Shown here in pieces: positions 45,429 through 50,804 of a stretch of DNA of 64,000 nucleotides. The stretch's first letter is position 1. Each line of letters opens with the position of its first letter. The position numbers were made by a program, and so were the translations under genes. The notes below the pieces were generated by a model that saw only the letters and a program-made list of their open reading frames with translations, had not been told where the DNA came from and did not search any database. Source of the DNA: Planctomycetes bacterium GWF2_41_51 (GTDB taxonomy: Bacteria > Planctomycetota > Phycisphaerae > Sedimentisphaerales > UBA12454); contig MHXZ01000029.1 in NCBI GenBank assembly GCA_001825665.1, forward strand, positions 1 through 64,000. Reading direction: 5' to 3'.

Positions 45429-45804
45429 AGGACTTGCGAGCGATTTTTCATTTCTGCGCAAGTTTGCAACACAAGTGCGCACGAAAGTGCTAAAAAAGCC
45501 GAAAAAAAAGCGTAAAAAAAGCGGGGAAAAGTGATTAAAAAGCGATAAAAAGCGAGCGAAAAACCACGGAATTTCAGGCTATATAGGATAGACAAGGCTC
45601 TACTTTTGACGCAATTTGGATGTTTTCGTTACTGATTGCGCAAGGGTGTGTGAAAGAAGATTTTTTTTATCGGTTGAGATTGGTGGAAATGAAGGATATA
45701 ATTTTAGCTGCGATGAGGAAGCAGCAAAGAAGAAACTTAAAACTTAAAGTGTAAAACTTTGGATTCGGCAAAAGCCGAGACTATTTTTTAAGGAGGCAAA
45801 GAAA
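45429..45804. other. Repeat-rich noncoding region, first part
   Basis: About 375 bp with no convincing gene, composed in part of A- and G-rich runs with repeated AAAAAGCG-like words (45490-45565). No stable RNA-like fold or known element was identified. Confidence 0.4.
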
Positions 45805-45970
45805 AACGGAAAAATTCACCACCGAGATCGCGGTCGAGGGCAGGCTCTACGAACGAATTTGCACCACGAAGCGATGAAGGACCACGAAGATTTTTTTTAA
45901 ACGCTGATTTCGCAGATGACGCTGATTTACACTGTTGATGTTTGCCACAGAGAACACAGAGGCCACAGAG
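45805..45970. repeat. Degenerate intergenic repeats (ACCACGAAG / CCACAGAG words)
   Basis: Short words common in bacterial intergenic repeats occur in order: CACCGAGATCGC, CACCACGAAG, ACCACGAAGA, ACGCTGATTTCGCAGATGACG, then TTTGCCACAGAGAACACAG and AGGCCACAGAG. They lie just before the branched palindrome. No coding potential. Confidence 0.55.
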
Positions 45971-45974
45971 TTAA

Positions 45975-46098
45975 TTGCTTTAAGGCGTCCCGAAAATCGG
46001 GACAGAATAATTTCAAAAATAAACTCTACTCAAGCGATCTTGTTCCGAGCTTACTTTTTGAAATTATTGCCTCTAAACGAGGCCATGTCTTAAAGCAA
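45975..46098. repeat. Long branched palindrome (124 bp)
   Basis: An imperfect inverted repeat with a three-arm design. The outer arms TTGCTTTAAG (45975-45984) and CTTAAAGCAA (46089-46098) pair perfectly. Inside are two side hairpins, GTCCCGA/TCGGGAC (45987-46003) and GCCTC/GAGGC (46069-46083), one on each arm. The inner arms AATAATTTCAAAAA (46006-46019) and TTTTTGAAATTATT (46055-46068) pair over 14 bp, then TAAACTC/GAGCTTA with one mismatch. It has no coding capacity and resembles a nonautonomous palindromic element or a cruciform site. Confidence 0.75.
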
Positions 46099-46160
46099 AG
46101 TAGACGGTAGTTAGTAGTCAGTAGTAAAAAGTGGAAAGTAAAAAGTGAATAGTGACCCCG

Positions 46161-46235
46161 GTTAGTTAGCAGTTAGCAGTTAGCAGTTAGCTATTAGCTA
46201 TTAGCTATCAGTTATCAGCTATTGGTTGTCAGTTG
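46161..46235. repeat. Degenerate tandem heptamers (AGTTAGC type)
   Basis: Four consecutive AGTTAGC units, then units drifting to TATTAGC and TATCAGT, in 75 bp. It is a simple-sequence tract 160 bp before the two-gene unknown unit. Confidence 0.8.
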
Positions 46236-46395
46236 TCGGATAAGAAAAAGGATTTTAAATTATTTTGCGGTGGTCGAAAACCTTTAAAGAAAACCTTACA
46301 GGGCAGGAAAAGTCGGTTGGAAAATTAATGATGAGATAAATTGTTTGGGAAAAATTATGGGTGATAACAAGAGTTCGAGATAAAAGGCGTATATC

Positions 46396-48309
46396 ATGAA
46401 ATATCTTTTAGAAATCGCAAAATTAGTTGCAATAAACACCAAAGATGAAAAATTACAAAAATTAAAACAAGAACATAAAGCCGAAATAGAAAAAGAAATA
46501 ATCGATTTATCAGAAACAGAGTTCGAGGACGTTTTTTCAAATCTTTTTCCGAAGCAGATTCCTAATGGATCTGATTTTTATGATTTGCTTCATAATTTTC
46601 AACATAATTTAGGTTATGAAACAGTCTTTTATAATTTTTGCGGAAAAATTTGGGCAAAAGCTTATGAAAAAATGCCATCGGATGGACATGAGGCTTTACT
46701 CAATTCTTTGTTTAGTGAAAAAGGACGAGGCGTATGGAGAGCGATATTCTTCCTTCCTGAATTTTGTTCTCAAGTGGAAATAGAAGCAAAATTTGCCACA
46801 AAATGGTTTTACCGTTTTGCAAATAAAGTGAAGGATGATATGGCAAGTTATGATTTTTTTAATGGTGTAAAAAATTATGGTTATCATTTTCCTAAGGCTG
46901 GAATAGAAGCTTTTGAGATATATTTATCTGAACAGTTGGATGAATTAAGAATGTTTTTGGGTTCCCTTCTGCTCGGTGCTGTTCGATTAAAAGCAGTAAA
47001 AGAACTCTTTGATAAAAATATTACTGATAATTTGGACAAAAAATTAGTTACTAACACTGAAATAAAAAAAAGATTAGTATATTTTAAATCTCTTCCAATA
47101 TCCTTAGATACTGAAGGTTTATCTTTTCAGAAACTTGAAAGTAATCTCAATGCAATGTTAAAAGGTGAAGCAGATGAGATAAGTGAAGCATTTGCGACTC
47201 TCTATCGATGTATGAAGAGCAATCATGCTGATGAAAAATTTATAAAGTTGGCAATGAACTGGTTCCTAAAAAATACGACAAGTTTATTGCCAGATATGGC
47301 TAAACATCATTTGGTCACTGCAATATGGTTTTTTACCACGCCAAGTAAACTAAAAGAAGGGATTAAGATTTCAGATACCGATGATTTACTTGTGGCAATT
47401 CAACCTATTTCAGAAAACAATCGCGGCACATGGGATAACGTTGAAATGTATCTTACAGAACGATTGCAAAAAGATTCCAAAGGGTTTGAAGAACTCCTTG
47501 AACGGTTGGTGGATACAAACCCAAAAGGTATGCTTGCTCAATTTAAAAGTGATGTATTAGACCATTTAAAAGCAGAAATGTGTCAATCACAAATTCAAGA
47601 ATTAATGACAAAATGGTCTCTTTCAAGCAACCAATTTAAAAGGGAAATAGTCAGAACTATATTTCAAAAATCTGAATCGATTGTTCTTTCTGATAAAATT
47701 ATTTCTGAAACAAAGGAAAAAGAACTGGAAATTGCTCTATTAGAATTAATACATAAGCCATTAATAATCGCAGAAAAAACTTCCGAATATTTATTAGCAC
47801 TAGAGCCTGCTTTTCGAAATGTCAAATTAGAACTTAAGCAACAATTCAAAAATGAAATGATATTACAAGCTATTAATTTTCCGGGAGCCTGTCTTGAGAA
47901 ATGGGAAAAAATAGAAAATCCGTCTGAGTTATTAAAAGAAATAATCCAAATTGCAAAAAAATATTTTGAAAATTTAAATCTAATAAAAGATTCTCCTGCA
48001 ATATCTTTTATGTTTCCCGGTTGCAAAGAGGCTGCTGAAAGAGAGGCGAATGAGTTTGCAAATAAAGTAGAAAGAGAAGCTAAAGAAAAATCAATTTTTG
48101 CAATTTTAGCAAAAAACATAAAGATAATATATGGGACAAAATGGGCAGTTACGATGGCAGACGGAAAATTGGGACAAGCAGAAGAATTTAAAGGATTTGG
48201 TCATTCAATGGAATTCCCCAGGGTCGAAATAATCGATCCTGAAGGTATGGCTATCAGAAAACTTGAAGCTACATGTAATATTATGGAAGTAAGAAATGAA
48301 CAAGAATGA
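46396..48309 (+). CDS. Large unknown protein, first of a two-gene unit
   Basis: A 637-residue protein I do not recognise. No signal peptide or membrane segment is visible. It is rich in charged and hydrophobic helices throughout, as in helical-repeat scaffold proteins. The last 90 residues differ: a helical, charged segment (EAAEREANEFANKVEREAKE) is followed by a strand-rich end (EFPRVEIIDPEGMAIRKL). No nucleotide-binding or nuclease motif is evident. Base composition and codon use are clearly more AT-rich than in the housekeeping genes. It overlaps the next gene by 14 bp, so both are likely co-translated. The RBS is weak (AAAGGCG). Confidence 0.85.
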   Translation: MKYLLEIAKLVAINTKDEKLQKLKQEHKAEIEKEIIDLSETEFEDVFSNLFPKQIPNGSDFYDLLHNFQHNLGYETVFYNFCGKIWAKAYEKMPSDGHEALLNSLFSEKGRGVWRAIFFLPEFCSQVEIEAKFATKWFYRFANKVKDDMASYDFFNGVKNYGYHFPKAGIEAFEIYLSEQLDELRMFLGSLLLGAVRLKAVKELFDKNITDNLDKKLVTNTEIKKRLVYFKSLPISLDTEGLSFQKLESNLNAMLKGEADEISEAFATLYRCMKSNHADEKFIKLAMNWFLKNTTSLLPDMAKHHLVTAIWFFTTPSKLKEGIKISDTDDLLVAIQPISENNRGTWDNVEMYLTERLQKDSKGFEELLERLVDTNPKGMLAQFKSDVLDHLKAEMCQSQIQELMTKWSLSSNQFKREIVRTIFQKSESIVLSDKIISETKEKELEIALLELIHKPLIIAEKTSEYLLALEPAFRNVKLELKQQFKNEMILQAINFPGACLEKWEKIENPSELLKEIIQIAKKYFENLNLIKDSPAISFMFPGCKEAAEREANEFANKVEREAKEKSIFAILAKNIKIIYGTKWAVTMADGKLGQAEEFKGFGHSMEFPRVEIIDPEGMAIRKLEATCNIMEVRNEQE

Positions 48310-50143
48310 TTTGCGTGGATTTCTAACTGCCTATATTTGCAGTTTGTTGGAAAGAACAAGAGCAGAAAAAGGCACATTGAAAATTGGATTTGATTGGTTG
48401 ATTTATCAACTTGCATTTGCCAAAGGTTGGAGGCCAGTAAGGCTTCCTTTTTTTAGGCAATCAGATAAAAAGGTCGCCAAAACCAAATCAGAAGCGGAGT
48501 TTGGAGTTGACGCATGTTTTCTTGGAGAACTTAAAACTGATTTATATGTATTCGTATTAAAAGATGAAATACTTAATAATAAAAATTGGACAAAGCATAA
48601 TTTTGACAGTGATTTACGAATGGCAGCAACAATTGATGTTAAACAATATGGTCTAAATTTTATTAAATCGGTAAAAGTAATATTGGCATATAATAAGGAT
48701 GAAGACGAGAATGGAATAAGATTATACCAACAATGTGCGAATTTTCACGGAACAAAAATTGGAGACTTTGTTTCTTTATCATTTGAGAGATGGAATCTTG
48801 ATAAAATTGTTGAAGAAGTCCAAGCTCATTTAACGCCAGATTTATTACCGCAACATGTTTCGGGTAGTTTCCGATATGTATGTTCTTTGGTTGAGGATTT
48901 CAAATATGGTACTACCGAATGGGACAATTTAGTAGCACCAAAATGGCGTCATTTCTTGAATTTGGTACTAGAAAATCCTGTTGATGAAAGGAAATTGAAA
49001 TTAATCCCGGTAGCGCTAATGATTATTCATCATTATCAAAAAGATGTGAAAAACTTTTATCCAGCATGGATAGACTTAATTGAATGGGCGATGCTTTCCC
49101 TATGGAAATGTTATAAAAATAATCCGAATAAAAAGCAAAAAAAAATGAACAAATTGATTGCCGAGATATGGAAAGGTTTATATATAGCTGAATTGGAAAA
49201 GTATTTTTTAATGATTGAACCTGTGCTGACGGCTCAACACGCTTTTTCAGCCAAAAGAATAGGCACTACTTTAGCTATTTCTCCAATTAATGATGCTTAT
49301 CTTGCATATTGGCATATTGGGCGGTTGGGAATATTAACTCTTGCTCCACAGGATTTTCAAATTAATGCGAAAAATGACGTAGAAAGTATTCAAATTGCAA
49401 CAGTATTTCAGCTTTCAATTAAACGCTCCGCAGATTGGTTGATTAGATGCCTTAATATAAATCCAGCAGCTTTAAGACCGTTATTAGATCTAAATCACAT
49501 AGAGCTTTTTCTTATATGGGCAATTCTTCTTCAGGCAGGCCGTAAAAAAGATATTTATGAATGGCTTTCTGAGCTTGAAGGACGGCTACTGATGAGAAGG
49601 GCAAAGATGAATATACCGATACCATTTATAGAAGCTAACAGCAGAATGGACTTAGTTGCTGAATATGCAGCAACAGGCAAAAAGCCTTATAATTTCTCAG
49701 ATAGCAGTTCATATTTATTATTGATGATTTTAGAACTATGTTTTTCTTTGCCGGATTCAGAACGTGATGAACTTCTTAACCGTTATATGAAAAGGATTGT
49801 CAAAGGGATTGATGAAAATAATCACACTATAGCACAAGATGAAATTGATTTACAAAGTTGGGTGCCGCCGGATGATTGGTCGGGACGTATTTTAAAAGAG
49901 CCAGTTTGGGATGGGATTGCGATAACTACAGGAAATTTTGAAAGATTGGGGGAAAAGGTATTACCATTGTCAGAAAGCATAAAACAGTCTGTTGATGAAA
50001 CCAGAAAAAAATATCCTTGGAAAATACCTGAAAGAACTCCATTAGCAGTGTACATTCTTGCTTGCATCAAACATCGTTCGCCTTTACCGCCAGAATTTTG
50101 GAGAGAGACAATATTCCGGACAGAGACCAATGATAAAAAATAA
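48296..50143 (+). CDS. Large unknown protein with nuclease-like N-terminus, second of the unit
   Basis: A 615-residue protein. Residues about 64-135 look like a restriction-nuclease-type fold: SEAEFGVDACFLG (Asp72) then a strand DLYVFVLKDE (Lys89, Glu91), a charged helix region, and VKVILAYNKDEDENG. The spacing is that of a PD-(D/E)xK core, but the position two before Lys is Val, not Asp or Glu, so activity is uncertain. Residues 150-615 are mostly helical, with many aromatic residues, and have no recognised domain. No membrane segments. It starts inside the upstream gene and shares its AT-rich composition. A defence or DNA-processing role is inferred from these points only. Confidence 0.8.
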   Translation: MNKNDLRGFLTAYICSLLERTRAEKGTLKIGFDWLIYQLAFAKGWRPVRLPFFRQSDKKVAKTKSEAEFGVDACFLGELKTDLYVFVLKDEILNNKNWTKHNFDSDLRMAATIDVKQYGLNFIKSVKVILAYNKDEDENGIRLYQQCANFHGTKIGDFVSLSFERWNLDKIVEEVQAHLTPDLLPQHVSGSFRYVCSLVEDFKYGTTEWDNLVAPKWRHFLNLVLENPVDERKLKLIPVALMIIHHYQKDVKNFYPAWIDLIEWAMLSLWKCYKNNPNKKQKKMNKLIAEIWKGLYIAELEKYFLMIEPVLTAQHAFSAKRIGTTLAISPINDAYLAYWHIGRLGILTLAPQDFQINAKNDVESIQIATVFQLSIKRSADWLIRCLNINPAALRPLLDLNHIELFLIWAILLQAGRKKDIYEWLSELEGRLLMRRAKMNIPIPFIEANSRMDLVAEYAATGKKPYNFSDSSSYLLLMILELCFSLPDSERDELLNRYMKRIVKGIDENNHTIAQDEIDLQSWVPPDDWSGRILKEPVWDGIAITTGNFERLGEKVLPLSESIKQSVDETRKKYPWKIPERTPLAVYILACIKHRSPLPPEFWRETIFRTETNDKK

Positions 50144-50157
50144 TTGAAGAATTTACA

Positions 50158-50202
50158 AATTCCCGCTTCCCGCCTGCGCGGGAACAGGTTATGGCGGGAA
50201 TT
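50158..50202. repeat. Nested GC-rich hairpin
   Basis: AATTCCCGC (50158-50166) pairs with GCGGGAATT (50194-50202), and inside TTCCCGC/GCGGGAA (50167-50173 and 50178-50184) forms another hairpin with loop CTGC. It lies 15 bp after the unknown unit and may end its transcript, although it is not followed by a T-run. Confidence 0.65.
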
Positions 50203-50220
50203 AAAAAGATAAATATTAAT

Positions 50221-50475
50221 GCCCCAGTGAGATAAAAAAATAGATGCGTTTTGAGATATTGCAAAAACAAGCATGGGCAATAAATTTGTAGTAATCGTAA
50301 GATTGTAATCTCACAGGGTAAACTTACGCATTTGAATGTAAAATATTAAGATGCCCTGATGAAGTAGTTTTAAGAACTTCAATGAAGCAGCACATGATGC
50401 TTCACCCCGATGAGATAGCCCTGATGGGATAGTAACGACATCCCACAGGGTAAACTTCGCATCTCACAGGGCAGG
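50221..50475. repeat. Palindromic repeat array before the GIY-YIG gene
   Basis: A 255-bp array of alternating words. CACAGGGTAAACTT occurs at 50312-50325 and 50444-50457, each followed by (A)CGCAT, with a third partial copy near 50464. The inverted form GCCCTGATG occurs at 50353-50361 and 50418-50426. CCCTG-A-TGGGAT pairs with ATCCCACAGGG (about 50419-50450), and two small hairpins, GAAGT/ACTTC and GAAGCA/TGCTTC, lie at 50361-50403. Spacing is irregular, so it is not a CRISPR. Confidence 0.75.
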
Positions 50476-50534: not shown

Positions 50535-50804
50535 ATGAATCAATTTTATTATGTATATATTCTAGTTTCTTTAAAAGACAAAGATTTTTATATCGGATAT
50601 ACAGACGATTTAAAAGACAGGATGGCCAGACATAATAATGGAGAAGTACAATCTACCAAAAATAGAACGCCTTTGAAACTTGTTTATTATGAAGCATGTT
50701 TAAATCAGAATGATGCCGTAAAACGCGAAAAATATTTAAAAACAACATGGGGTAAAAGATATGTTAATAACCGATTAGAAAGTTATTTCAAAAGACAAAT
50801 ATAA
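50535..50804 (+). CDS. Small stand-alone GIY-YIG nuclease
   Basis: An 89-residue protein consisting only of a GIY-YIG (UvrC N-terminal-like) domain. The fold signature reads YYVYILVSLKDKDFYIGYT (Y-x-Y and Y-I-G motifs), then LKDRMARHNNGE (catalytic Arg), STKNRTPLKLVYYEA and a KREKYLK segment with the conserved Glu. Such single-domain proteins are thought to cut DNA, but their biology is poorly known. It follows a dense palindromic array by 60 bp and has no partner gene on the right. Confidence 0.9.
   Translation: MNQFYYVYILVSLKDKDFYIGYTDDLKDRMARHNNGEVQSTKNRTPLKLVYYEACLNQNDAVKREKYLKTTWGKRYVNNRLESYFKRQI

Follow-up and report, generated by a model that had tools for sequence, protein, structure and literature searches.

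A probable divergent Olokun gene pair with a putative Mrr-like nuclease domain in Planctomycetes bacterium GWF2_41_51

Identity and divergence of the gene pair

Two overlapping genes in the 64,000-nucleotide stretch analyzed here (hereafter the window) raise the question of whether they form an anti-phage system and, if so, which one. The pair consists of the following features:

46396–48309, + strand: oloA-like gene, 637 aa (PADLOC OloA match, AlphaFold2, Foldseek), encoding a predicted all-alpha HEAT-like solenoid
48296–50143, + strand: oloB-like gene, 615 aa (PADLOC OloB match, AlphaFold2), encoding a predicted N-terminal Mrr-like PD-(D/E)xK domain and, C-terminal to it, a predicted helical region
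48296–48309, + strand: 14-bp overlap of the oloA-like and oloB-like reading frames

The sequence-only reading of this locus had described two genes of 637 and 615 residues with a 14-bp overlap, in agreement with the ORF coordinates, and had read them as a horizontally acquired cassette, possibly an anti-phage or DNA-processing system, in which a scaffold protein is paired with an effector; our results support the reading as an acquired anti-phage cassette of this make-up, with OloB as the effector candidate. Its remark that the AT-rich composition is unlike that of housekeeping genes is borne out: the GC content is 0.317 in the oloA-like gene and 0.349 in the oloB-like gene (window mean, 0.421), the GC3 values are 0.22 and 0.265, and both measures are the lowest among the 39 long ORFs of the window. 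The same reading knew of no named system with such a pair and saw no familiar motif in the rest of the two proteins; both statements are overturned by the PADLOC-DB comparison, which names both proteins over nearly their full length. The first protein matches OloA (PDLC03925, E 3.8e-24; protein residues 42–621, profile positions 58–585 of 596), and the second matches OloB (PDLC03926, E 9.8e-30; protein residues 64–606, profile positions 39–554 of 556). Homology to OloA and OloB covers most of the length of each protein, and the two genes are adjacent on one strand with A before B, which is the Olokun order. Relatives of the two proteins that were tested in the window clade match these profiles as well, and the OloB profile found no match in 14 control genomes. 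Pfam and NCBIfam searches returned no usable match for either window protein, because neither database has a model for Olokun.

PMC10121019 cites Olokun as an anti-phage system that came from a 2022 screen (its ref. 7). PMC10855318 includes it in a list of nuclease-type systems that are either predicted or experimentally validated, and PMC12592470 describes it as not thoroughly characterized. The pair is an already named two-gene system, Olokun, and not a new kind of system; that the window copy is a divergent Olokun anti-phage system we consider very likely. What the present analysis adds is a likely nuclease domain in OloB and its likely partner, a repeat scaffold in OloA.

Like canonical Olokun, the window pair has two overlapping genes in A–B order, near-full-length profile matches, the same invariant OloB residues, and a patchy, mobile distribution. 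Comparison with canonical Olokun also revealed that (i) the identity is low, approximately 20% for OloB (approximately 17–21% against canonical members) and 15% for OloA (approximately 13–17%); (ii) the PADLOC scores of 84 bits (OloA) and approximately 101–102 bits (OloB) compare with 546 and 675 bits for the canonical OloBs in the same phylum; (iii) the N-terminal domain of the window OloB has insertions of 9 residues between Glu19 and Asp33 and of 11 residues before Gly70; and (iv) the reading frames overlap by 14 bp, whereas the canonical pairs on plasmids and virus-classified contigs, in which the A–B order is the same, mostly overlap by 4 bp. The window scores lie far below those of canonical OloB, and therefore the function of this clade may have drifted from that of canonical Olokun. 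It is highly probable that the clade would be active in defence.

A tree of 16 OloBs groups the window protein with those of the Phycisphaerae MAGs G274 (71%) and G186 (52%) and of one Myxococcota MAG (61%) in a single clade, separate from canonical Olokun, with 100/100 support and on a long inner branch (2.84 changes per column). These members extend the range of Olokun to Phycisphaerae and Myxococcota. The Myxococcota OloB is nested within the planctomycete clade (100/100 support), where it groups with G186, and this grouping points to transfer of OloB between phyla.

Predicted structures of OloB and OloA

The GVD...VLKDE block, which the sequence-only reading had correctly placed at residues 70–91 of the second protein and had likened to a degenerate PD-(D/E)xK core, lies within the following region:

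48389–48793, + strand: putative nuclease core, OloB residues 32–166 (16-sequence alignment, order of secondary-structure elements in the model, hhalign of the canonical OloB N-terminus against Mrr_cat)

In the alignment of 16 OloBs, which share approximately 20% identity with the window OloB, residues E19, D33, G70, D72, K89, and W166 are invariant, and the divergent branch thus reveals Asp33, Asp72, Lys89, Glu19, and Trp166 as residues that OloB has retained. D72 and K89 (16/16) supply the conserved Asp and Lys of the PD-(D/E)xK motif. The position two before Lys89 is normally Glu, Asp, or Gln, but each of the 16 proteins has V, S, T, L, or I there, so that the second acid or Gln of the motif is found in none (0/16); the domain is therefore called Mrr-like rather than a proven active member of the superfamily.

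The AlphaFold2 model of OloB (pLDDT 78.7, pTM 0.81; 9-sequence alignment) contains a helix (residues 32–42), 2 strands (73–76 and 82–89), helices (95–111), a strand (125–132), a helix (138–150), and a strand (159–166), beyond which helices extend up to the C-terminus. This order fits the alpha-beta-beta-beta-alpha-beta core of PD-(D/E)xK nucleases. Searched against the PDB, however, the full-length model matched no nuclease significantly: nothing scored below E 0.09, helical repeats dominated, and the nucleases XPF and Mus81 appeared only at E 0.6–0.9. A PDB sequence search gave no OloB match.

Profile comparison was made with Mrr_cat (PF04471), a nuclease domain of type IV restriction that belongs to the PD-(D/E)xK superfamily, using an in-house profile of at most 28 sequences. 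The N-terminal profile of canonical OloB aligned with it by hhalign over 107 columns (P 1.7e-4, 49% probability), and the first-helix acid, G-x-D, xxK, and the closing DGxxL element were all in register; controls with reversed or shuffled input reached P 0.007 at best. The window-clade N-terminus in turn aligned with canonical OloB (profile alignment, 95.7% probability, 1e-8), and the window clade alone did not match Mrr_cat significantly (0.2% probability). Canonical OloB thus resembles Mrr_cat in its order of elements, namely the first-helix acid, G-x-D, the xxK strand, and a final strand followed by the DGxxLxxL helix. It differs in that [VSTLI]xK replaces QxK or ExK, the first-helix acid is Asp, and the sequence match is weak, being significant for OloB only by way of the canonical proteins.

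The nuclease reading of OloB rests on conservation, secondary-structure order, and this profile comparison, which together suggest that the N-terminal domain is Mrr-like PD-(D/E)xK; this assignment is supported, not proven. The degenerate core proposed earlier accordingly stands as regards the invariant D72 and K89, the order of elements, and the Mrr_cat alignment, and is qualified by the weak match and the missing acid. On the same sequence features, OloB is somewhat likely to be a catalytically active nuclease.

OloA was modeled with helices only (AlphaFold2, mean pLDDT 83.6), as the sequence-only reading had anticipated, and its fold could now be related to HEAT solenoids. The best Foldseek matches are the HEAT proteins SF3B1, PP2A A subunit, and importins (E 2.5e-4 to 1e-2), the predicted model has the helical-pair solenoid of HEAT-repeat proteins, and HEAT_2 matches occur in 2 OloA relatives. 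A PDB sequence search with OloA gave marginal matches only. The all-alpha solenoid resembles these HEAT-repeat scaffolds in architecture, but the TM-scores are low (0.17–0.31) and do not indicate membership. OloA is predicted to be a HEAT-like solenoid, with which a scaffold or sensor role would fit. The predictions, HEAT-like for OloA and Mrr-like for OloB, provide a testable domain layout for Olokun.

In G186, oloA and oloB are separated by a third gene, which encodes 244 aa (contig C77, locus L010, 8181–8915, − strand). Its product resembles the N-terminus of canonical OloB (BLASTP 4e-06), with the Asp and Lys kept and the acid missing. From its sequence, this gene is a possible stand-alone nuclease subunit of a three-gene Olokun. 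It appears doubtful that the window clade represents an Olokun subtype of distinct function, with a remodeled nuclease active site and, in one relative, a nuclease duplicated as a third stand-alone subunit.

Variable site, neighbors, and occurrence

The site of the pair was compared with that in the same-genus genome G008, where the glycosyltransferase and pseudouridine synthase genes that flank it lie on one contig with 92–95% identity over most of their length:

45706–50348, no strand assigned: stretch without counterpart at the syntenic G008 site (flanked by blastn alignment up to 45705 and again from 50349; junction alignments)

Between these flanking genes, the window has 4.64 kb with oloAB, and G008 has 1.94 kb with 2 unrelated ORFs. 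Because the content between the same flanks differs, oloAB is located at a variable site. In place of oloAB, G008 has overlapping ORFs of 299 and 280 aa (locus L045, 1296–2195 and 2128–2970), family unassigned, in a stretch with a GC content of 0.344. This ORF pair has no Pfam or PADLOC match and may represent a further defence or mobile pair.

Downstream of oloAB lies a small GIY-YIG gene (50535–50804), which has 9 matches in the genome of the window. Compared with its G008 counterpart (L045, 3138–3407), the first 150 nt are approximately 57–77% identical and the last 120 nt are 97–100% identical; a 44-bp stretch upstream of the gene (50349–50392) is identical in G008. The mosaic gene and the identical stretch look like a recombination junction at the sequence level. 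We rejected the GIY-YIG gene as an Olokun member, since it is also present at the G008 site, which is without Olokun.

Repeats and palindromes had been reported to border the genes on both sides. They are present in both flanks, but the 2 sides do not form a matching pair. Upstream are a 7-bp tandem array (46164–46223) and, in the non-syntenic stretch, a nested hairpin (45975–46098; DNA fold −32.7 kcal/mol, z = −7.3), which occurs once in the window and nowhere in the comparison loci; an Rfam search of the cassette and its flanks, the hairpin included, gave no match. Downstream (50158–50471) are a 9-bp inverted repeat and short direct repeats, partly common to the GIY-YIG loci of same-genus genomes. 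Because the ends do not match and the downstream repeats belong with the GIY-YIG loci, the repeats do not mark element ends, and a mobile element bounded by them was rejected.

The immediate neighbors of the pair in the window are housekeeping genes, and PADLOC found no other defence gene among 10 neighbors, so a defence island in the window was rejected. The survey of relatives did place family members near defence genes elsewhere: the Myxococcota OloB (locus L016, JAFDAS010000003.1) has AbiE, RadC, and a PIN-domain gene in its neighborhood, and other relatives lie near type II/IIG restriction–modification methylase genes (L009), TIR and SIR2 genes (L055), or a NACHT gene (L057).

OloB occurs in 1/13 genomes of the family, 4/161 of the order, and 3/298 of the class, and its profile gives only sporadic matches in the class and phylum. 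In G274, oloA and oloB are adjacent. A scan of genome contigs with the single window OloB found nothing, and one with the OloB alignment found 3 loci. Viral contigs yielded nothing with the window clade and 3 loci with canonical OloB, and phage records yielded nothing with canonical OloB. A match in G724 was left out, as its open frame is not OloB-like. The pair, patchy in occurrence and horizontally spread, is of the defence type.

Proposed mechanism and alternative explanations

The most likely reading is a defence module in which OloA is the scaffold and OloB the nuclease. OloA would act as a helical HEAT-like scaffold or sensor that holds or positions OloB, whose C-terminal helical region probably docks on OloA in a complex. 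An infection signal would then recruit or free the OloB nuclease domain, which would stop the phage by cutting its nucleic acid, or that of both phage and host.

The main alternative is an Olokun homolog with a catalytically dead nuclease domain that serves as a sensor binding nucleic acid or a signal, while killing is left to OloA or to the C-terminal region of OloB. The absence of the acid or Gln two before Lys89 in every OloB would fit such a domain, and the additional nuclease-like gene of G186 looks as if activity were supplied in trans. That gene, however, likewise lacks the acid, and the invariance of Asp33, Asp72, and Lys89 across very divergent proteins would be needless in a dead domain; we regard this alternative as somewhat unlikely. 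Less probable still, and in our view improbable, is a cellular DNA- or RNA-processing pair that shares ancestry with OloA and OloB and has no role in phage defence. The strong divergence of the clade, seen in its long inner branch, and the housekeeping genes immediately beside the pair would be compatible with it, but patchy occurrence, cross-phylum transfer, low GC content, and a variable site are unlike a housekeeping pair, and the relative in another phylum adjoins AbiE, RadC, and a PIN-domain gene.

It is also conceivable that the matches to OloA and OloB are spurious and that the two genes make up some other system that has no name yet, as helical repeat proteins can match by composition and the identity is only 15–20%. 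Yet both partner profiles were matched in the right order and with near-full coverage (1e-24 and 1e-30), the invariant residues of the alpha/beta motif lie outside the repeats, the N-terminal domains align with each other, and the control genomes gave no match, which makes this explanation extremely improbable.

Genes other than a full-length OloA were seen upstream of some OloB homologs. Upstream of the Myxococcota OloB (L016, 1–269) is a gene that is not OloA; it encodes an 89-aa C-terminal piece with a CKHC motif, and the contig ends there. A search of this MAG did not find OloA; its OloB may have a different partner, or the MAG may be incomplete. In approximately 20 Klebsiella and related plasmids (among them the Klebsiella plasmid locus L058, 3096–5674), the OloB homolog is preceded by a 300-aa gene that is not a full-length OloA.
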